In this document: positions 7,551 through 63,018 of the stretch, piece after piece
Position numbering within the stretch: the first letter of the stretch is position 1
Layout of the letters: each line of letters opens with the position of its first letter
NCBI GenBank assembly: GCA_023381615.1
Contig: JAMCQL010000072.1
Location: forward strand, 1-64,000
Direction: 5' to 3'
Source of the DNA: Bacteroidota bacterium
GTDB taxonomy: Bacteria; Bacteroidota; Ignavibacteria; Kryptoniales; JAKASW01
Length of the DNA stretch: 64,000 nt
The notes under the pieces: generated by a model
What the model saw: only the letters and a program-made list of their open reading frames with translations
Told to the model about the DNA's origin: nothing
Databases searched by the model: none
Program-made: the position numbers and the translations under genes

Positions 7551-8831
7551 ATGGATGAGTCACTCCTAAACGAGTCTGATAGTCTCACCAAAGAGCATTA
7601 CCGCATACTCTACATGAGCTGGGCTGGCTGGGTCTTCGATTTCTATGACCTCATGCTTTTCACTTTCCTTTTAATTCCAATCGGCAGGGAGCTTCACCTT
7701 TCAAACGTCACTCTGTCATACGTTCTCGGCGCGTCTCTGGCGGCGACTGCAATCGGCGGAATTATCTTCGGAGTCCTCTCCGACAAGTTTGGCAGGAAAA
7801 GCGTCCTTCAGTGGACAATTTTAACTTACAGCATCGGCACTTTCCTGAGCGGGCTTGCTCCGAATCTTGAGACTCTTCTCGTGTTCAGGATCATAACGGG
7901 ACTTGGCGTCGGAGGCGAATGGGCAACAGGCCAAACTTTTATCGGTGAAACATTTCCACCGAAACGGCGAGCCAGATATGCGGCGTTTATGCAGACGGGC
8001 GCGCCTATCGGAATCATCTTCGCTTCTGTCGTCGGTGGGCTGCTCGAACATTTGATCGGGTGGCGCGGCTCTTTCTTCGTTTCTGTCTTACCGGCGCTCT
8101 TGGTTGTCTTCGTGAGAAAGCATTTGCCGGAATCGGATGTTTGGTCCGCGCACAAGAGAATCGTTGACGGCGGACAATTGAGTCAAGAAACTCTGCAGGT
8201 AGAAAAATCCGCGAAATTCAAATTGCTCTTTTCGAAAGAACACAGATCGATGTTTCTGCGCGCGCTGCTTCTTGCGATCTTTTTGATGTCGGCTTACTGG
8301 TTCACCTATTCGTGGCTCCCCGGTTACCTTCACCAGCAGAGACATTTTACCATGACGAAGTCTGCATTGTGGATGATCGTTGTGCAATCGGGAGGATTTC
8401 TCGGCTACATTTCGTTTGGATTTACGGCCGACTTCATCGGTCGGCGCCCGGCTTTCACAATCTATTCATTTATGTGGGCAGTTGGACTCTTGATGACGAC
8501 GCTCTTCTGGAATGCGGTCATTGCTTATCCGGCAGTAATTTTGGCTTTCATGTTCCTCGTCGGATTTGGCACAGGCGTATTCAGCGGTTTCGGGCCTTTG
8601 TGCGCCGAACTTTTCCCAACAGGGATCCGGAACACCGCGATGGGTTCGGCATTTAACATCGCCAGAGGAATACAATTTTTTACGCCGGTAGCGATCGCGG
8701 TCGTGGCGGAAGGATATGGGCTTGCCGGCGGAATTTCCCTTGCGTCGCTCTTTGCCGTCCTGACCGGATTGTGGATTTGGAGTTTTCCCGAAACGAAAGG
8801 GAAGAAGATATCGGTCCTCACCGTGGAATAA
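7551..8831 (+). CDS. MFS transporter, sialate/carboxylate-type (SHS/MHS-like)
   Basis: The 426-residue protein has about twelve hydrophobic segments. The MFS signature GVLSDKFGRKSVLQ lies between helices 2 and 3. The stretch GGEWATGQTFIGETFPPKRR is typical of sialic-acid or lactate/pyruvate H+ symporters, and a second-half GFTADFIGRRP repeats the loop motif. It probably imports an organic acid or sugar acid by proton symport. A GTG at 7527 is in frame, but ATG 7551 has GGAG at good spacing. The neighbouring oxidoreductase and aldolase suggest a sugar-acid substrate, which is inference only. Confidence 0.85.
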   Translation: MDESLLNESDSLTKEHYRILYMSWAGWVFDFYDLMLFTFLLIPIGRELHLSNVTLSYVLGASLAATAIGGIIFGVLSDKFGRKSVLQWTILTYSIGTFLSGLAPNLETLLVFRIITGLGVGGEWATGQTFIGETFPPKRRARYAAFMQTGAPIGIIFASVVGGLLEHLIGWRGSFFVSVLPALLVVFVRKHLPESDVWSAHKRIVDGGQLSQETLQVEKSAKFKLLFSKEHRSMFLRALLLAIFLMSAYWFTYSWLPGYLHQQRHFTMTKSALWMIVVQSGGFLGYISFGFTADFIGRRPAFTIYSFMWAVGLLMTTLFWNAVIAYPAVILAFMFLVGFGTGVFSGFGPLCAELFPTGIRNTAMGSAFNIARGIQFFTPVAIAVVAEGYGLAGGISLASLFAVLTGLWIWSFPETKGKKISVLTVE

Positions 8832-52350: not shown

Positions 52351-52611
52351 ACAAAAATATCATTCTTGCCAAAGAAGATTTCCGCCATAGGCGGACAATA
52401 ATTCAACTCAATCGTCCGGATGTAATGAACGCCTTGAATCGCCAGTTGATGAGTGAGCTTTCTGTGTGTATCGAAGAGTTTCGAGCTTTCTTTGAAAGAA
52501 GGGTTGGAATTCGAGAGGAAGAATTTCTACATGCTGTTTTCAACCGAGGACCAAAAGGAAGGAATGCGAGCGTTTGTTGAAAAACGCAGGCCGCAGTGGA
52601 AAGGTAAATAA
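52351..52611 (+). pseudogene. Enoyl-CoA hydratase pseudogene with internal deletion
   Basis: The N-terminal part reads DKNIILAKEDFRHRRTIIQL then NRPDVMNALNRQLMSELSV in one frame. The C-terminal part reads GLEFERKNFYMLFSTEDQKE, then GMRAFVEKRRPQWKGK and a TAA in another. The two are joined near 52485, so about 180 codons, including the oxyanion-hole and catalytic segments, are missing. A small TCCGCC/GGCGGA insertion sits in the N-terminal part. It is a separate family member from the intact gene at 53397. Confidence 0.8.
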
Positions 52612-52630
52612 TTTTTCCGGTGAAAAAGAG

Positions 52631-53404
52631 ATGAAACGAAAATTCGATTTTATAGTGAAATCAAAAAACGGCTCGATAATCTTCGAGGACGAAAATATTA
52701 TTGTGATAAATAAGCCGCCCAATCTTCTCGTCCTTCCGGATAGGTACAATCACTCGCTTCCGAATCTGTACAATATGCTGAAGGAAGAATTTGGACAAAT
52801 ATTTGTGGTCCACCGGATAGACAAGGAGACAAGCGGTGTGATTGTCTTTGCGAAAGATGCTGAGACGCACGCGGCGTTGAACTCTCAATTTGAAGAGAGA
52901 GAAGTGGCGAAGACTTACGTTGCGATAGTCGTTGGCACGCCGACGGAGGCAGAAGGGAAAATCGACGCACCTATTTCCGAGAGCCAGACGCATCCGGGCG
53001 TGATGAAAGTGAACAGCAAACACGGCAAGCCTTCGGTTACAAATTATAGAGTTGTGGAAATGTTTGATGGCTACGCGCTTGTTGAAGCAAGGCCAGAGAG
53101 TGGACGCATGCACCAAATAAGAGTTCATCTTGCCTCGATTGGACTTCCTGTCATGTGCGATAAAGTCTACGGTGACGGGAAGCCGTTCTTTCTCTCGCAG
53201 GTTAAATCACGCTACTTTTCCGAGGGGGACGAGAAACCATTACTTTCACGAACCGCGCTTCACGCCGAATCGATTTCATTTGTTCATCCGACAACGAACG
53301 AGAATGTGTCTTTCACCGCAGAATTACCGAAGGATATGCGCTCTGTATTGAATTATTTACGAAAATTCAAGTCGCAAAAAGTAGCAGCTTTCGAACATGC
53401 CTGA
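52631..53404 (+). CDS. RluA-family RNA pseudouridine synthase
   Basis: The 257-residue protein has the motif VVHRIDKETSGVIVFAKD with the catalytic Asp, plus IVINKPPNLLVLP and RMHQIRVHLASIGLPVMCDK. It converts uridine to pseudouridine in rRNA or tRNA; the target is not predictable. ATG 52631 is used. Its end overlaps the enoyl-CoA hydratase start by 8 nt. Confidence 0.9.
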   Translation: MKRKFDFIVKSKNGSIIFEDENIIVINKPPNLLVLPDRYNHSLPNLYNMLKEEFGQIFVVHRIDKETSGVIVFAKDAETHAALNSQFEEREVAKTYVAIVVGTPTEAEGKIDAPISESQTHPGVMKVNSKHGKPSVTNYRVVEMFDGYALVEARPESGRMHQIRVHLASIGLPVMCDKVYGDGKPFFLSQVKSRYFSEGDEKPLLSRTALHAESISFVHPTTNENVSFTAELPKDMRSVLNYLRKFKSQKVAAFEHA

Positions 53405-54176
53405 AATTGAAACTATAAAAATCGAAGTTGAGAACGGAATCGGCAGACTTACATTGAATCGTCCGGACTCGCTCAACGCATTCAACGAGGAAATGACAGG
53501 CGAGATTCAGTCGGCGCTCAAGAGTTTTTCAAACGATGAAAATGTCCGCTGTGTTGGCATCACTGGAAGCGGGCGGGCGTTTTCTGCCGGACAGGATTTG
53601 AAGGAAATTGCGCCGGGTAGATCGTTTTCGGATTTCTTGAAGCGGCGTTATAATCCGATCATAAAACTCATTACATCTATGGAGAAACCTGTCGTCGCGC
53701 TCGTCAACGGAGTTGCCGCCGGCGCGGGAATGAGCCTCGCGCTTGCTTGCGATTTCAAGATTATGAACTCGAATGCAAAGTTCATCCAGGCTTTTGTTAA
53801 GATCGGGCTCGTGCCGGATTCGGGCTCAACATATTTTCTTCCGCGGCTTGTCGGATATACAAAGGCATTCGAGCTTGCTGCACTCGGAAATGAGATTTCG
53901 GCGGAAGAAGCGCTGAGCTTGGGAATTGTCAACCGCGTTTACACCGACGATAAATTTCTTGATGAATCCGAAAAAACGCTCGCGCTTTTTTCAAAAGGTC
54001 CCACTAAAGCTTATTCGCTCATAAAAAGAATGCTCAATTATTCTTCAAACACTTCACTCGAACAGAGTCTTGAATACGAGGCTTACATGCAAGAAATTGC
54101 CGGTCGGACGGAGGACGCCCAAGAAGCCGTAAAAGCTTTTGTTGAGAAGCGTCCGCCGGTTTTCAAAGGGAGATGA
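53397..54176 (+). CDS. Enoyl-CoA hydratase/isomerase (PaaG-like)
   Basis: The 259-residue crotonase-fold protein has GRLTLNRPDSLNAFNEEM, the oxyanion-hole segments RAFSAGQDLKEI and VNGVAAGAGMSLALACD, and the expected C-terminal VKAFVEKRPPVFKG. The residues around VGLVPDSGS (here IGLVPDSGST) resemble PaaG-type isomerases. It hydrates or isomerises an enoyl-CoA. It is followed by the oxygenase-like and dehydrogenase genes, so the three make one beta-oxidation-like module. Confidence 0.9.
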   Translation: MPEIETIKIEVENGIGRLTLNRPDSLNAFNEEMTGEIQSALKSFSNDENVRCVGITGSGRAFSAGQDLKEIAPGRSFSDFLKRRYNPIIKLITSMEKPVVALVNGVAAGAGMSLALACDFKIMNSNAKFIQAFVKIGLVPDSGSTYFLPRLVGYTKAFELAALGNEISAEEALSLGIVNRVYTDDKFLDESEKTLALFSKGPTKAYSLIKRMLNYSSNTSLEQSLEYEAYMQEIAGRTEDAQEAVKAFVEKRPPVFKGR

Positions 54177-54233: not shown

Positions 54234-55139
54234 ATGGAGAGGAGGAGAATTGTGGCGATAGAAAGCGATGTCCCGGTACGGAATTTATCGAGACTGCCCG
54301 ACGAGGAACGCGAGAAACGGATGTGGGAGAAAATTCAAAAGGGAGAATCAATAGAGAGCCCGGACGAGATGAGCGACGACTATTTCCAAAATCTTGTCAA
54401 TCTGATGCTTCAGCAAGCCGATTCCGAACTCGCCGGTGCGTTCGGTTACGTGCAATGGATAATGCAGGCGCCGACGACTGAAGAAAAACTCGCGGTTGCA
54501 AACATAGTGAAGAACGAGGTTCGCCGCGCGCGTGCAATATACAGACTTCTCGAAGACCTCGGCATCGATGCCGACTCACATGTTGCAAAACATGATTACA
54601 CTCTCCGTCTCGACTTGAAGTCTGACGAGTTGAAAGACAAGCGCGCGGCTGACGACAGGCGCGTGAATATTTTTTATTATCCGATAGACACATGGGCAGA
54701 TTTCGTGATGTTCCGGTTCTGCGTGGACCGCGGCGCCGGACATCAACTGGAGGATGTTCGCAAGTCCACTTACGGTCCGTGGAAAAGAGAAATCGAGCGC
54801 ATCTTCAAGGAAGAGATGATGCACGTGAACCACGGCGATTACTGGGTGAAGAAAATGGCGTTCGATCGTTCTACGAAATCGGAGATACAAGCAGTGTTGA
54901 ACAAATGGTATCTGCGCACGATGAATATTTTCGGAAGACCGAAAACTCATCGCAACCAGATCTACAGGAAGTACGGGCTTAAGCTGAGGGATAATGACGA
55001 AGTGCGAAAAGGATTTTCAGAAGAAGTCAGGTTGAAATGCAGCGAGTGGGGACTCAATCTCCCCGATTGGAAGCCCGAATGGAAAAAAATTGTCCAAGGG
55101 ACCCCTTTCGGGGAAGAAGACGGAGTCATATCAGGCTAA
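54234..55139 (+). CDS. PaaA-like diiron oxygenase subunit with one altered metal ligand
   Basis: The 301-residue protein aligns by eye with E. coli PaaA: QADSELAG (Glu65), WIMQAPT, KNEVRRARAIY, FYYPIDTWADF, the Asp165 helix and KEEMMHVNHG (Glu194, His197). PaaA is the catalytic subunit of phenylacetyl-CoA epoxidase. Family ligands are all present except one. The first ExxH (DEAGH in E. coli) reads Glu95-Val-Arg-Arg98, so a His ligand is Arg. No paaB, paaC, paaD or paaE is present. It abuts the dehydrogenase (TAATG). Activity may differ or be absent. Confidence 0.8.
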   Translation: MERRRIVAIESDVPVRNLSRLPDEEREKRMWEKIQKGESIESPDEMSDDYFQNLVNLMLQQADSELAGAFGYVQWIMQAPTTEEKLAVANIVKNEVRRARAIYRLLEDLGIDADSHVAKHDYTLRLDLKSDELKDKRAADDRRVNIFYYPIDTWADFVMFRFCVDRGAGHQLEDVRKSTYGPWKREIERIFKEEMMHVNHGDYWVKKMAFDRSTKSEIQAVLNKWYLRTMNIFGRPKTHRNQIYRKYGLKLRDNDEVRKGFSEEVRLKCSEWGLNLPDWKPEWKKIVQGTPFGEEDGVISG

Positions 55140-56344
55140 TGAAAGCAGTGGGCATTGCGGGTACGAGCACCATGGGTGCAGGTATTGCCATCACTTTCGC
55201 TCGGAGCGGATGGGATGTGCTGCTGTACGATGTTTCGAAAGAGATCGTCACGCGGTCGCTTGAGGTCATCAGCACGGAATTTCAGCGCGAGGCTGAGAAG
55301 GGAAGGATCAAACCTGAAGATGCACAGGCGTCGATAGCACGCATCCACCCGCGTACAGAGCTTTCCGATTTCTCCGAGGTGCATTTAGTGATTGAAGCGG
55401 TTACCGAGAATTTGAGCGTAAAAAAGGACGTGTTCGCGGAGCTCGATAAAATATGCGCGCTCAATGTACCGCTGACCTCGAATACTTCGAGTTTGTCTAT
55501 CGGCGCGATCGCGAACGGTTGTTCCGGTAGAAACAGAATCGCAGGGCTGCACTTCTTCAATCCAGCTCACAAAATGAAACTTGTCGAGGTGATAAGGACC
55601 GATTTTCTTTCCGAGGAAGTGCTGCTTGAACTCTCGCAGATTGTGCGGCAGATCGGAAAGACGCCGATCGTTGCGCGTGACACGCCTGGATTTGTGGTCA
55701 ACCGCTGCGCCCGCCATTTTTATCTCGAGCCGCTCCGCTTTTTGTCGGATCGGATCGGAAGCATCGAAGAGATTGACTATGCTTTCGAGTCGGCGAATTT
55801 CCCGATGGGACCGTTTAGGCTGCTTGACTTGGTTGGCATTGATCTAAACTTTCTCGTCTCGAAGTCGATCTATGAGCAATTTTTCCACGAGCCTCGATTC
55901 AGACCGGTCATCCTGCAGCAAAAGATGGTGGAGTCGGGACTTCTCGGCAGGAAAACGGGAGCTGGGTTCTACAATTACAGCGAGAAAGTGCCGCATGCTG
56001 TCGTAAAACTCGAACGGCGGGACGCTTTCATTAGCGAGACTCTTCGCGAAATGGCGCACAAGATTTCTGAAAGACTCGATGTAAAGAATCCACTTAACGG
56101 CAGTCAGCAGCTAATACTTGCACGAACAATATCAACGATAGTGAACGAAGCATATTTTATGTTGGAAGAAGGAGTTGCGAGCGAAGAAGACATTGACCTT
56201 GCAATGAAATTAGGAACAAATTATCCGAAAGGCCCGCTGCAGTTTTCGGAGTCAATTGGAAAGTATTTGATCGCAGAGTTTCTCCAGATTATGCGTCGTG
56301 CTTATGGCGATGCCTACCGGCCAAGCCCTTTGTTGTCATACTAA
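55139..56344 (+). CDS. 3-hydroxyacyl-CoA dehydrogenase (PaaH/Hbd-like)
   Basis: The 401-residue protein has the NAD motif VGIAGTSTMGAGIAITFAR, the signature GLHFFNPAHKMKLVEVI and PGFVVNRCARHFYLEPLRFL. A second C-terminal dehydrogenase domain (TIVNEAYFMLEEGVASEEDI) is fused, as in PaaH-like enzymes. It oxidises 3-hydroxyacyl-CoA with NAD+. It starts on the last base of the oxygenase gene stop (TAATG), so the two proteins are made together. Confidence 0.92.
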   Translation: MKAVGIAGTSTMGAGIAITFARSGWDVLLYDVSKEIVTRSLEVISTEFQREAEKGRIKPEDAQASIARIHPRTELSDFSEVHLVIEAVTENLSVKKDVFAELDKICALNVPLTSNTSSLSIGAIANGCSGRNRIAGLHFFNPAHKMKLVEVIRTDFLSEEVLLELSQIVRQIGKTPIVARDTPGFVVNRCARHFYLEPLRFLSDRIGSIEEIDYAFESANFPMGPFRLLDLVGIDLNFLVSKSIYEQFFHEPRFRPVILQQKMVESGLLGRKTGAGFYNYSEKVPHAVVKLERRDAFISETLREMAHKISERLDVKNPLNGSQQLILARTISTIVNEAYFMLEEGVASEEDIDLAMKLGTNYPKGPLQFSESIGKYLIAEFLQIMRRAYGDAYRPSPLLSY

Positions 56345-56356
56345 AAGGAGATAAAG

Positions 56357-56887
56357 ATGCATGCGAATCGTTTGTCGTACTTTCTTGTTCTTCTCTTTTC
56401 CTCAGCCGCGGCAGCACAGCCTCAAATAATTCATTTCAAACAGTTGCAGCAATTTCTTCCGCAAGGTGACTATGAAACTTATACTTGCGGAAAACCAACC
56501 GGCGAGACCGCTTCGATGATGGGCTTCTCCACATCATGGGCGCAGGTGATTTACCGTTACTCGACCGATTCAATCAGCAGCACAATATCGGTAAAGATTA
56601 CAGACATGCTGAACATACCCTCTTACATGTCGGTATCCGGCGATGTCGATAAGGAAACCGAAACGGGTTATGAAAAAACTGTCCTGTACAAGAACATAAA
56701 AGTGCTTGAGACTTTCGACAGCACTTCTCAGGAAGCCAAGCTGCAGCTTCCTTTCGCGGACAGATTTCTAATCGAGATCACCGGCAACAATATTCCCGGC
56801 ACAAAATCACTTTATGGTCTGCTTGACAAAACGAACCTTGAAGGATTGGACAAATCTATCCCCCCTGCCGGTTCTCAAAAGAAATGA
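56357..56887 (+). CDS. Secreted protein, unknown
   Basis: The 176-residue protein has a signal peptide (LSYFLVLLFSSAAAAQ). The mature part is beta-rich with a repeated KITDMLNIPSYMSVSGDVD-like pattern and no Cys pair. AAGGAG precedes the start, 12 nt after the dehydrogenase stop. I do not recognise a family. A membrane or surface role is inferred only from export. Confidence 0.7.
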   Translation: MHANRLSYFLVLLFSSAAAAQPQIIHFKQLQQFLPQGDYETYTCGKPTGETASMMGFSTSWAQVIYRYSTDSISSTISVKITDMLNIPSYMSVSGDVDKETETGYEKTVLYKNIKVLETFDSTSQEAKLQLPFADRFLIEITGNNIPGTKSLYGLLDKTNLEGLDKSIPPAGSQKK

Positions 56888-56937: not shown

Positions 56938-57423
56938 ATGAACTGGTTTGCCGTATCGTTATTTTTTCATTTAATCGGTGTAGGAATGATCTTCACGGTT
57001 CTAATCGCCGGACCGATCATAGAAGCGAATTACAGGTGGGAGAACGACTTAAGAATGAAACAGCACGCTGCAAAGTTATTGCGGAGCGTCGGGCTCCTTT
57101 CTCCGTTTGGTGCGCTCGTGCTTGTGCTCAGTGGAATTGCGAATATGGTTGTAAAGAACATCACTTTTGCAAATCTTTTCGGAAGCGCGGCGTGGCTCGG
57201 TATGAAGCTTATACTTTTCATTGTTCTGCTCACAATCGGAATGACAACGAGTCCGAAAATTGCGAGACAACGCGCGATGCTGCTCGAGCAGATGAACCAG
57301 CTTAATCCGCCGGAAGACGTTAACGACAAGATGTCATCTCTCAACAGCACGCAGACAATTTCCTTTCTTGTGCAATGGATACTTGTCCTATTGATTTTAC
57401 TTTTAACTCTTTTCAAACCTTGA
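56938..57423 (+). CDS. Four-helix integral membrane protein (DUF2269-like)
   Basis: The 161-residue protein has four predicted membrane segments (MNWFAVSLFFHLIGVGMIFT, then about residues 51-70, 85-103 and 137-158), with a His in the first helix near the start. The arrangement recalls DUF2269 and related CopD-type proteins. AAGGAG precedes ATG 56938. Its function is unknown. Confidence 0.65.
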   Translation: MNWFAVSLFFHLIGVGMIFTVLIAGPIIEANYRWENDLRMKQHAAKLLRSVGLLSPFGALVLVLSGIANMVVKNITFANLFGSAAWLGMKLILFIVLLTIGMTTSPKIARQRAMLLEQMNQLNPPEDVNDKMSSLNSTQTISFLVQWILVLLILLLTLFKP

Positions 57424-57529: not shown

Positions 57530-57997
57530 ATGAATTCCAAGACAGCCGCGTTACTTCGTAAATATGAAAATGCGCCGGGCGAACTGATCGAGTCGGTCAA
57601 TGGTTTGTCGGATGCGGAACTCAATAAACGCCTTGCGCCGAAAAAATGGAGCATCAGGCAGCAAGTTCACCACCTTGCCGACGCAGAAGTGAATTTTGTT
57701 CAGAGGATGAAAAAGATCATCGCGGAAGAAAATCCGCTCATTACTCCTTTTGATCAGGACAAATGGGCGGCGAAATTTTCATACGACAAATCTCCGGTGG
57801 AAGGTTCCGTCGCGCTTTTCTACACACTGCGTGCGTCGATGGTGCCGGTGTTGAAAAAGCTTAGCGACAAAGATTTTATGAGAACTGGCGTCCATGCGGA
57901 GAACGGGAAAGTGACTTTGTTCGATATCCTCGAGCACGCGGTTGAACATACAGAACACCATTTTAAAATGATCGAAAAAAGTAAAAAGAAAATTTGA
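57530..57997 (+). CDS. DinB-family protein
   Basis: The 155-residue four-helix protein shows KKWSIRQQVHHLADAEVNFV near the middle and HAVEHTEHHFKMIEK at the C-terminus, giving the three His of the DinB metal site. Members include bacillithiol or thiol transferases and many unassigned proteins. AAGGAG lies shortly before the ATG. Substrate unknown. Confidence 0.85.
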   Translation: MNSKTAALLRKYENAPGELIESVNGLSDAELNKRLAPKKWSIRQQVHHLADAEVNFVQRMKKIIAEENPLITPFDQDKWAAKFSYDKSPVEGSVALFYTLRASMVPVLKKLSDKDFMRTGVHAENGKVTLFDILEHAVEHTEHHFKMIEKSKKKI

Positions 57998-58305
57998 AAT
58001 TTAAATATGAGATAAATCTCAAATTACAAACTTCAAACAAATTCCAAATAATACTAGTGTAGTGTCTCGTAAATGTCTTATACTCGTTCCCATGCTCGGA
58101 GTTTATCCCTGCCCTTGGCGGGATGGGAACGCAATGCTGGCGCTCCGCGCCCGATATCGTTGCCATTTTCTTGCGCGGAGCGCAAAATCTGTGTTCCCAC
58201 GGTCTCCGTGGGAACAAGAAGAAAACTTAGGCAGCCCGCCGCGGGCGGGTCGCGGACTTTCACAATAATGATGTTGCAGCCTGACAACCTTTTCAAGGAG
58301 AATTA
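57998..58305. repeat. Intergenic repeat cluster (GTTCCCA type)
   Basis: No gene is seen. CGTTCCCATGC (58085) pairs with GGGATGGGAACG (58119-58130). GCGCTCCGCGC and GCGCGGAGCGC pair around a short spacer. The perfect 23-mer hairpin 58193-58215 is identical to the one at 1392-1414. A CCGCC/GGCGG hairpin follows at 58235-58250. Confidence 0.7.
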
Positions 58306-59724: not shown

Positions 59725-60776
59725 AAGCGATAGTACCCACAGTCCCAGCTTCTGTCTGGAAGGAACTCTACTCTGCTGCACAAAAATTCAACTCCCTTCA
59801 GCCGTGGAATATCCTTGACGACAGAGATCTTATTTGCGTTCGCAACCCATCAAGCGGTGAAACGGGATTCGGCGGCGTTATGGGAAGCGGCGGCGAGCTT
59901 TTCGGATTCGTTCTGTACCGCGAGGCGGAAGGATTCCATATCTACCGCCGGACGATCCAGGGAGAGATTGACCGGGAAAATGACGACCTCTTTGAGATGC
60001 AGAATAGTCTGAATTTTGAACTCGGCCCTCGCAGCAATATGATGCCCGAGGACTTTGCGGTGATGAAGCAGCTGGATCTCTCTTTCAAGGGGAAGAATGC
60101 GTGGCCTGAGTTCAGGAGCATGGTATCGGGATACGCGCCCTGGTTTCTGACGGAGCCCGAAGCACGCTTTCTGACGCTCGGCATTAACGCGGCATGCTGG
60201 CATCACGATCGCGTGCAGAGAGGCGAGGTTGGAGAATCGATTCGAGATGATGAATGCCTCATGTACACTCCCGTCGAAGGATCCCAGACGGAGTTTCGTT
60301 CGGAGTGGGAGCCGCTGCCCGTGTATGAGAAGAAACCGTTGAAGCCGCCGGTTTTGAATTTAGGTGTGATCAGCTCGATCAAGGCGAAGAAGCTGAAGCC
60401 CGACTCGGAGTGGGAAGCGGATGCGTTTTTCCTTCCCATGCCTGTCATGGACCGTGACCGGCCTTATTTTGCCCGGACCGCAGTGGCATGCCAGCAGGTA
60501 TCGGGGTTTGTGTTCGACATGATCACGGCCTCCCCGGAAATCCCGCAATATCAATTGCTGGCGGACACGATTTGCTCGTCCATAGAGAAATCCGGATTTA
60601 AACCGGATGCGATCTTCGTCAGGAATGAGGAGTTTGCATCTGCCCTGGCGCCGTTGTCAAACGTGCTCGGGATTCAGGTGCGCAGCCGCAAGAATCTCTC
60701 TTCGATTGAAATGCTCAAGGAGTCGATGCTGAGCTATATGATGGGTGAAGAGAAGGGGCGGAGAGGGAAAAGATGA
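59721..60776 (+). CDS. DUF7309/DUF6930-like protein in front of cas3
   Basis: The 351-residue protein starts with TTG after AAAGGAAAG. The N-terminal half (FNSLQPWNILDDRDLICV, GFGGVMGSGGELFGFVLYRE) resembles DUF7309. The C-terminal half (RPYFARTAVACQQVSGFV, AIFVRNEEFASALAPLSN) resembles DUF6930. Family names are from memory. It has no signal peptide or membrane segment. It lies 28 nt before cas3 and directly behind the cas3 relic, so it looks inserted at the front of a type I-C locus. Function unknown. Confidence 0.7.
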   Translation: MKAIVPTVPASVWKELYSAAQKFNSLQPWNILDDRDLICVRNPSSGETGFGGVMGSGGELFGFVLYREAEGFHIYRRTIQGEIDRENDDLFEMQNSLNFELGPRSNMMPEDFAVMKQLDLSFKGKNAWPEFRSMVSGYAPWFLTEPEARFLTLGINAACWHHDRVQRGEVGESIRDDECLMYTPVEGSQTEFRSEWEPLPVYEKKPLKPPVLNLGVISSIKAKKLKPDSEWEADAFFLPMPVMDRDRPYFARTAVACQQVSGFVFDMITASPEIPQYQLLADTICSSIEKSGFKPDAIFVRNEEFASALAPLSNVLGIQVRSRKNLSSIEMLKESMLSYMMGEEKGRRGKR

Positions 60777-60804
60777 TTGTGGTTGTGAGAATAGGGGAAG
60801 ACAG

Positions 60805-63018
60805 ATGAAAACGCTTCAAAGCAAATCGAACGCGTTCTACGCTCATTCGGAGAATGAGAAAGGTGAGAGACACGAGTTGAAGGCGCACCTCCTGCAAACA
60901 GCAGAACTTGCGGAATCGTTTTCGCCAACAGAGAAGTTTCGACGCTTGTTCTATCTTGCCGGACTTCTTCACGATGTCGGCAAGTTCCAGGATGGGTTTC
61001 AAAAATATATGTTCGAAGGAGGCAAAAGGACTCCGCACGCAGCTGTCGGGGCGTTCGTTGCCAAGTTGTTGGCTAAGCAATATTTGCCTTTGCAGTTTGC
61101 GATTCAGGGGCACCATTCAGGGATGCCTGATAACTCAGAACGAAGCGCCAATATCGAGGACTACGAGGAAAATGAAGATGGAGTGAACATTCTATCTGAA
61201 AGATTCAAAGAGGCTTTTCCTGCGTTCGTCGTTCCGGAAATTGTTCTCCCGAAGAAGGACTTCCTGTTGGCTGAATGCGTAACGCGTTTCCTATTCAGCG
61301 CGTTGACAGATGCGGACTGGCTGGATACCGAACATCACTTCGACACGGAACGTACGGAAGCCAGAATGGGTCAAAGACTTGACCAGGATGGTTTGTGTGA
61401 ACTGTTACTCGAGAAACTTGAGAACAAATTTCAACAACTTCCGACTGAAGGAAAGATAAACGCACTTCGCACAAAGGCAAGGAGTGACGCAGCAGCGCAT
61501 GCCGAAGAGAATCCGGGATTTTTCTCCTTGCAATTGCCGACCGGCCTGGGAAAAACACTGACATCTATGTACTGGGCGCTGTTGCACGCAAGACATAACC
61601 ACCTGCAACGTATTATGATGGTTCTTCCATATGTCAACATCATTGACCAGACAGCAAAGGTATTGAAAGAGGTTTTCGGAGAGGATGCGGTTTTGGAACA
61701 CCACTCCGGACTTGTCGATGAAGATGGAAAGAAGGACAAATATGACGAAAGTGATGCCAGCGACGACAGAGAACTATCCAAGCGATTGGCTTGTGAAAAT
61801 TGGGATTCGCCGATCATAGTAACAACATCTGTCCAATTCTTTGAGTCCCTGTTCAGCAACAGACCGTTTAAGTGCAGGAAGAACCATAACGTTGCGGAGT
61901 CTGTGGTCATCTTCGATGAAGTTCAGACTCTGCCCAAGGAATATGCCGAACCCATAATCATGATGCTTAAAAATGTGAGCGCACTTGCGAGGACATCTTT
62001 TCTGTTTTGCACGGCCACGCAGCCGGCATTTATGAAGCGTGATGGTTTCGATGGAATCGAAAACATGTGCCCGCTTATTGCAAAGCCAGAGAAGTATTTC
62101 AAACCGACGCGACGGGTGAACTACGAATTGTTGAATGGACTTGAGGAAGTGCCGCTTGACAGGGTTGTAAAAGAGTTGAGCGAAGAGACAGGATCATTTT
62201 TGGTAATTGTTAACACGAAGAGCGTTGCACGGGAGTTGTTTGAAGAAGTCAAACAATTCGACGGATACGACAGGTATTACCATCTATCAACGGCAATGTG
62301 CCCCCATCACCGAAAGAAAACAATCGATGCCGTCATTGAAGACTTGAAGAACAAAAAACGCATCGCAGTTATATCAACCCAATTGGTTGAAGCAGGCGTG
62401 GATTTCGATTTCCCGTGCGTGTACCGCGCTATTGCGCCAATGGATTCAGTTATTCAAGCCGCGGGCAGATGCAACCGGAATGGAAAGTTAGAAGAGGGCA
62501 AGGTCGTCATTTTCAATTTGGAAAAACACGAAATGCCGGATGTGACATACCAGGCGTGTGCCTCTTTTGCTGCAGGTATTATTAAAGACGACGTGAACAT
62601 TCTCTACGATGCCAGCTCATTTGAAGAATATTATAAGCAGGTTATCGGGCTGTTCGTGAACGCAGACAAGTTTAAGATTACGGAGAAAAGAAAAGGATTC
62701 GATTTCAGAGAGGTGTGCGAGAGCTTTAGGTTCATCAATGAACCGACAACTTCCCTTGTCGTTGAGAAGTACGCCGAGGGAGAATCTTTACTTGAGGAGG
62801 TCAAAAAATTAGTGGATGCGGAAAGAATCACTAAAAGAAAAATAATTAACAGAGGTCACTACAGAAGACTACAGCAATTTTGTGTGCAGGTATATCCGAC
62901 TTTTCTAAGAAGTTACAATGACCAGATTGTCCCGTTGAACGATACGATCAGAATTTATACCGGAAATTACGACGAAGATTTTGGTTTGTCTCCGAAGGAT
63001 GTTGAGACGGTGTTTTGA
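60805..63018 (+). CDS. cas3: Type I-C CRISPR helicase-nuclease Cas3
   Basis: The 737-residue protein has an N-terminal HD nuclease domain (LAGLLHDVGKFQDGF, QGHHSGMPDN) and a SF2 helicase (LPTGLGKTLTSMY Walker A, VVIFDEVQTLPKEY, FCTATQPAF, and STQLVEAGVDFDF/AAGRCNRNGK late motifs). Cas3 is recruited to Cascade-bound targets and degrades them 3' to 5'. ATG 60805 follows AGGGGAAG. The frame is open to 60745 without support. It leads cas5c and cas8c. Confidence 0.95.
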   Translation: MKTLQSKSNAFYAHSENEKGERHELKAHLLQTAELAESFSPTEKFRRLFYLAGLLHDVGKFQDGFQKYMFEGGKRTPHAAVGAFVAKLLAKQYLPLQFAIQGHHSGMPDNSERSANIEDYEENEDGVNILSERFKEAFPAFVVPEIVLPKKDFLLAECVTRFLFSALTDADWLDTEHHFDTERTEARMGQRLDQDGLCELLLEKLENKFQQLPTEGKINALRTKARSDAAAHAEENPGFFSLQLPTGLGKTLTSMYWALLHARHNHLQRIMMVLPYVNIIDQTAKVLKEVFGEDAVLEHHSGLVDEDGKKDKYDESDASDDRELSKRLACENWDSPIIVTTSVQFFESLFSNRPFKCRKNHNVAESVVIFDEVQTLPKEYAEPIIMMLKNVSALARTSFLFCTATQPAFMKRDGFDGIENMCPLIAKPEKYFKPTRRVNYELLNGLEEVPLDRVVKELSEETGSFLVIVNTKSVARELFEEVKQFDGYDRYYHLSTAMCPHHRKKTIDAVIEDLKNKKRIAVISTQLVEAGVDFDFPCVYRAIAPMDSVIQAAGRCNRNGKLEEGKVVIFNLEKHEMPDVTYQACASFAAGIIKDDVNILYDASSFEEYYKQVIGLFVNADKFKITEKRKGFDFREVCESFRFINEPTTSLVVEKYAEGESLLEEVKKLVDAERITKRKIINRGHYRRLQQFCVQVYPTFLRSYNDQIVPLNDTIRIYTGNYDEDFGLSPKDVETVF

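Follow-up and report, generated by a model that had tools for sequence, protein, structure and literature searches.

A solitary PaaA-like oxygenase gene with an arginine at an iron-ligand position is probably a recently disabled family member

A gene in the draft genome of a Kryptoniales bacterium of the phylum Bacteroidota (GCA_023381615.1, contig JAMCQL010000072.1) encodes a protein that resembles PaaA, the catalytic subunit of phenylacetyl-CoA 1,2-epoxidase, and carries an arginine at the position of one of the histidines that bind iron in PaaA. The initial annotation offered three answers to what such a protein does: a CoA-thioester oxygenase of a new, single-subunit kind, a heme-free variant whose chemistry has changed, or an inactive structural subunit. 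We analyzed the gene in the window, i.e. the whole stretch of 64,000 nucleotides at positions 1 to 64,000 of the contig, and compared it with its relatives in other genomes. The reading we favor, at a probability of roughly 0.77, is that the window gene belongs to a family of solitary PaaA-like diiron oxygenases and was disabled recently. The features of the locus are collected in Table 1.

Table 1. Positions of the PaaA-like gene, its altered sites and its neighbors within the window.
Feature	Position	Strand	Remarks
PaaF pseudogene	52353..52608	+	two remnants in different frames; ~500 bp deleted
RluA-type pseudouridine synthase	52574..53404	+	PF00849; position kept in 11 loci
PaaG-like isomerase/hydratase, intact	53397..54176	+	41% to E. 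coli PaaG; best NCBIfam match TIGR02280 PaaG
PaaA-like gene	54234..55139	+	PF05138; 301 aa as listed, GTG 54252 likelier start
Asn94	54513..54515, AAC	+	Asp in every relative; DExRH to NEVRR
Arg98, at iron ligand His75 position of E. coli PaaA	54525..54527, CGC	+	His in 22/22 relatives
In-frame 21-nt insertion (VQGTPFG)	55092..55112	+	7 residues, found in no relative
PaaH-like 3-hydroxyacyl-CoA dehydrogenase, 401 aa, intact	55139..56344	+	PF02737 + PF00725
Conserved 176-aa module protein	56357..56887	+	no family match
161-aa membrane protein, conserved in module	56938..57423	+	weak CopD similarity, below cut-off
DinB-family protein, conserved in module	57530..57997	+	profile match
Site of aldehyde dehydrogenase gene in intact relatives; absent here	57998..58305	+	no orthologue genome-wide

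Profile searches placed the window protein in the PaaA_PaaC superfamily (PF05138, E 1e-39, 136.8 bits against a gathering cut-off of 28.5), whereas its scores fell below the cut-offs of the three more specific models, namely PaaA (TIGR02156, 121.9 bits vs an equivalog cut-off of 280), PaaC (TIGR02158, 53.5 vs 133) and BoxB (TIGR03225, 22.4 vs 499). It is 27% identical to E. coli PaaA across 260 aa and its best match in the PDB is PaaA (E 2.7e-18), in agreement with the likeness along the gene that the initial annotation had reported. AlphaFold predicted the PaaA fold both for the window protein (pLDDT 83) and for the orthologue from genome G010 (pLDDT 87), and structure searches with the two models returned PaaA chains first, followed by Sulfolobus SSO1313, PaaC and BoxB; the best PDB structural match of the window model was PaaA (Foldseek E 2.8e-12). 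Translation probably begins at GTG 54252, six codons downstream of the listed start, since the Met-Met of the relatives corresponds to Ile-Val in the window, just past a GGAGG motif.

The iron ligands of E. coli PaaA are E42, E72, H75, D126, E155 and H158 (PMC4498308), and their aligned counterparts in the window protein are E65, E95, R98, D165, E194 and H197. Five of the six ligands are therefore kept and the sixth, His75, is replaced by Arg98, exactly as first annotated. PaaA also contains a lysine bridge formed by K68 with E49, E72 and D126 (PMC4498308). The window protein lacks this bridge, with I91 and Y72 at the positions of K68 and E49, and the same residues are replaced throughout the family, K68 by Ile and E49 by Tyr (Cys in one member).

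The initial annotation had also stressed that none of the other Paa epoxidase genes is nearby, and this holds for the genome as a whole: the 94% complete draft, in 86 contigs, contains a single PF05138 protein and no PaaB, and its matches to PaaE and PaaK all lie below the curated cut-offs. A full Paa epoxidase gene set at another site, which the initial annotation had raised as making the module less novel, was not found and is rejected within the limits of this draft, on whose completeness the gene absences reported for this genome rest, so that they are not absolute. Exactly one PF05138 protein was present in 11 of 13 genomes of the genus, and PaaB in none of the 13. Outside the genus, eight of the nine genomes searched encode the solitary protein either alone (seven genomes) or together with one weak homologue that groups with BoxB, and genome G062 has three weak additional matches. 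With the PaaE and PaaK models, the Kryptoniota-type and Vampirovibrio-type genomes tested gave only weak matches below the cut-offs; close PaaK homologues were present in one Blastocatellia genome, G062. Haloarchaeal plasmid matches were rejected as solitary members, having PaaB- and PaaC-like neighbors. The control genome of Sulfolobus acidocaldarius contains a PF05138 protein and lacks a PaaB match; together with the solved SSO1313 (4mud), it may represent a further PaaA-like protein lacking the full complex.

We compared the window protein with 22 distinct relatives, 10 of them in the genus and 12 in other lineages of Bacteroidota, Cyanobacteriota and Acidobacteriota. The orthologues in the 10 other genus genomes are 66-81% identical over the aligned stretch, and orthologues at 53-63% come from Blastocatellia, from Sericytochromatia- and Vampirovibrio-type Cyanobacteriota and from one genome labelled Chlorobiales. 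The family is rare: among sampled genomes it was present in 4 of 396 for the phylum of the window genome and in 5 of 386 for that of the cyanobacteria. All 23 members (window protein and 22 relatives) fall in one clade with a support of 100, and a PaaG/PaaH context is common to the genus and the Vampirovibrio-like genomes. The clade lies outside PaaA and groups with BoxB-type proteins (support 92), a placement that is tentative given the long branches. A search of the open-licence literature returned no paper naming this family.

The gene context of the relatives points to the reaction in which they may take part. In genus clusters, a PaaF-like gene (45-47% identity to the E. coli protein) is followed in order by RluA-type, PaaG-like (37-42%), PaaA-like and PaaH-like (35-37%) genes, one small gene, often a PaaJ-like thiolase gene (53-55%), two further small genes and an aldehyde dehydrogenase gene. 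The pseudouridine synthase, which all through the genus separates PaaF from PaaG, is an unexpected operon partner. Vampirovibrio-type clusters consist of an EthD-family protein, a further crotonase, PaaF (42-45%), PaaG (47-53%), the PaaA-like protein, a split PaaH and PaaJ (59-61%). The further crotonase (L045:5449-6312 and its equivalents in L041-L044) had no NCBIfam match at a strict limit and by eye resembles the ring-opening BadI/MenB type. In Blastocatellia the neighbors are different, namely a LysR regulator and aldehyde dehydrogenases together with a phenol-hydroxylase-like protein, a LigB-type dioxygenase, a ferredoxin and the thiolase. The cluster at L038:6356-16484 and L039, in which HpaE/StyD-like aldehyde dehydrogenases occur alongside a 4Fe-4S ferredoxin, a LigB-type dioxygenase, a further diiron-hydroxylase-like protein (PF02332) and, in L039, a DHDPS-family aldolase, looks like an aromatic ring-cleavage route with a different layout. 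In the phenylacetate pathway, the substrate of PaaG is the epoxide made by PaaA. Because a PaaG-like enzyme repeatedly pairs with the solitary oxygenase, the analogy suggests an epoxide as the product of the latter as well. The intact family would probably act as a stand-alone CoA-thioester oxygenase, and its targets are probably CoA-linked aromatic rings.

Among known systems, PaaA (TIGR02156; PDB 3PW1, 3PVR) shares with the intact relatives its fold, length and ligand set, as well as gene neighbors of the PaaF, PaaG, PaaH and PaaJ type. However, the solitary family lacks PaaB, PaaC, PaaE and PaaK and reads DE[VIM][RN]H where PaaA has DEAGH, and the window copy is one ligand short. Benzoyl-CoA 2,3-epoxidase, BoxB (TIGR03225; PDB 3PER, 3PM5), has the same ligands and the tree grouping in its favor, and like the solitary family it works without a PaaC-like structural subunit (PMC4498308). 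It differs in length (about 475 aa vs about 270 for the solitary family), sequence similarity is weak, and no boxA or boxC genes were found in the solitary clusters, whose open reading frames gave only generic ferredoxin and crotonase similarity. PaaC belongs to the same PF05138 family and has lost ligands in E. coli and in several other PaaC proteins, as has the window protein, but the tree puts the latter on the side of PaaA and BoxB, and a catalytic partner is missing. A role as a PaaC-like structural subunit is rejected on these two grounds; from the third proposal of the initial annotation, the inactivity survives as the best fit, while the structural role falls for want of a catalytic PF05138 partner in the genome.

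Comparison with the relatives also showed how unusual Arg98 is. Each relative has His at this position, within a DE[VIM][RN]H motif, and all relatives possess the six diiron ligands, so that Arg98 is rejected as a conserved family trait; the initial annotation had named this outcome as the mark of a private mutation or read error, and private it is. The changes D94N, P74Q and M164V and the seven-residue insertion are likewise confined to the window genome. Four of 76 family-invariant columns, defined on the other 18 proteins aligned, are broken by the window copy (P74Q, D94N, H98R and M164V), compared to 0 or 1 in most congeners. No second copy of the 21-nt insertion was found within the window, and its origin as a copy of a repeat is rejected on the basis of that search. 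We consider Arg98 a private change in what is probably a recently disabled gene, lending no support to new chemistry, and it would most likely abolish iron binding at one site.

Next to the PaaA-like gene, enoyl-CoA hydratase-type and 3-hydroxyacyl-CoA dehydrogenase genes are present on both sides, as initially described. The PaaG-like product scores 268 bits against the TIGR02280 cut-off of 345. The PaaH-like dehydrogenase is 36% identical to E. coli PaaH, with full-length orthologues at 73-81%, and its start overlaps the stop of the PaaA-like gene (TAATG), the mechanically assigned start at 55037 being wrong. The module as a whole is nevertheless breaking up. PaaF is reduced to an N-terminal remnant (52353-52481, residues 4-43) and a C-terminal remnant (52468-52608, residues 211-257), the latter overlapped by the listed start of the RluA-type gene, which is probably too early. 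Orthologues of the aldehyde dehydrogenase and of the PaaJ thiolase of the module are absent from the whole assembly. The gap of the missing aldehyde dehydrogenase contains, at 58000-58300, the hairpin-like short repeat TTCCCACGGTCTCCGTGGGAA, which may be an element remaining at the deletion site. Further downstream, a large open reading frame (60745-63018, + strand) has HD-type and helicase-like stretches and by eye resembles a Cas3-type CRISPR helicase-nuclease.

The decay appears to be recent. The 3' remnant of PaaF is still 85% identical to an intact orthologue, with 5, 6 and 26 differences at the three codon positions, a third-position bias as between intact orthologues, and the break is therefore taken to be recent. 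For the PaaA-like gene, a two-ratio codon model gave an omega of 0.067 on the window branch (95% range about 0.03-0.15) compared to 0.043 in the background, a non-significant difference (2 dlnL 1.1), and omega = 1 was rejected for the window branch (2 dlnL 17.9); synonymous sites are near saturation, so these omega values are rough. The models were custom-written, and in the two-ratio fits only the foreground parameters were free, the others keeping their one-ratio values. With a branch omega far below 1, a long-standing pseudogene is rejected. Since the codon models show purifying selection across most of the branch, the simplest reading is that the gene was functional for most of it and was lost near the tip. 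Related modules are losing genes too. In the congener G001, PaaG, the PaaH-like dehydrogenase and the small genes are kept and the PaaA-like gene is deleted; the gap between PaaG and the PaaH-like gene is ~150 bp and ends in the scrap EIEEEGVIAS, which resembles the C-terminus of the PaaA-like protein (locus L081, G001:C29:8000-26000, near 8019-8162). Genome G003 has a broken PaaF, lacks the aldehyde dehydrogenase and the thiolase and breaks 12 invariant columns, and in G009 PaaF and the aldehyde dehydrogenase are fragmentary and omega is 0.20.

Some observations count against a disabled gene: no stop interrupts the 301 codons of the frame, the branch on average remains under strong constraint, and the adjoining PaaG- and PaaH-like genes are both intact. 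Together with the translational coupling to the PaaH-like gene and the good predicted fold, they would suit a repurposed pseudo-enzyme that has lost the diiron site and kept another role, for example as a scaffold or in CoA-ester binding for its PaaG- and PaaH-like neighbors. We regard this as unlikely: the state is seen in no other member, the module is losing genes in the window genome, G001, G003 and G009, and G001 retains PaaG and the PaaH-like dehydrogenase without a PaaA-like protein, showing that these neighbors do not need it. An assembly or sequencing error would be conceivable in a draft of this fragmentation, both motif changes being single transitions, but it is very improbable in view of several separate private changes, a clean in-frame insertion in a gene without frameshift, and the 500-bp deletion in the nearby PaaF. 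Least probable of all, by a little, is that the protein still works as an oxygenase through a changed metal site, whether with Arg98 not acting as a ligand, with a mono-iron or Mn center, or with novel chemistry. The five remaining ligands and the clustering of D94N and H98R in one shell, with M164V adjoining ligand Asp165, could be fitted to this reading, but it is disfavored by the restriction of Arg98 to a single genome out of the family, by the loss of its ring-opening dehydrogenase and PaaF partners and of the thiolase, and by the lack, to our knowledge, of any precedent for Arg at the His position of a carboxylate-bridged diiron site.

For a recently disabled family member, the following sequence of events can be proposed. 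In the intact relatives, a stand-alone diiron protein would oxygenate a CoA-thioester with O2 and with electrons supplied by a reductase, probably giving an epoxide; the ring would be opened next by the PaaG-like isomerase and the aldehyde dehydrogenase, and beta-oxidation would be completed by PaaF, PaaH and PaaJ. In the window genome, the first His ligand has changed to Arg and the second-shell Asp to Asn, an internal deletion has truncated PaaF, and neither the aldehyde dehydrogenase nor the thiolase is left. The window protein should still fold without forming a functional diiron site, and the pathway should be inoperative; the loss of iron and activity, and likewise the substrate and chemistry of the intact family, are what we infer. 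The proposal of a new single-subunit CoA-thioester oxygenase thus fits the intact relatives, with their six ligands and solitary clade, but not the window copy with its lost ligand. At slightly less than even odds, the intact relatives represent an undescribed stand-alone CoA-thioester ring oxygenase, a PaaA-like and BoxB-related diiron enzyme of one subunit that feeds a PaaG-PaaF-PaaH-PaaJ route without PaaB, PaaC, PaaE or PaaK in Kryptoniota-type Bacteroidota and non-photosynthetic Cyanobacteriota, the window copy being a natural loss-of-function example.

A 2026 survey found PaaA and PaaC co-retained in all 825 ligase-bearing proteomes examined and described them as an inseparable marker pair for phenylacetate degradation that seldom occurs where the ligase context is missing (PMC13186573). 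The solitary clade breaks this pair rule, and its members will consequently be misannotated as phenylacetate epoxidase. The family also offers a compact single-subunit system in which to probe the purpose of PaaC and of the lysine bridge. The window copy itself serves as a caution: a metal-ligand change in one draft genome can represent gene decay, which comparison with relatives reveals at once.
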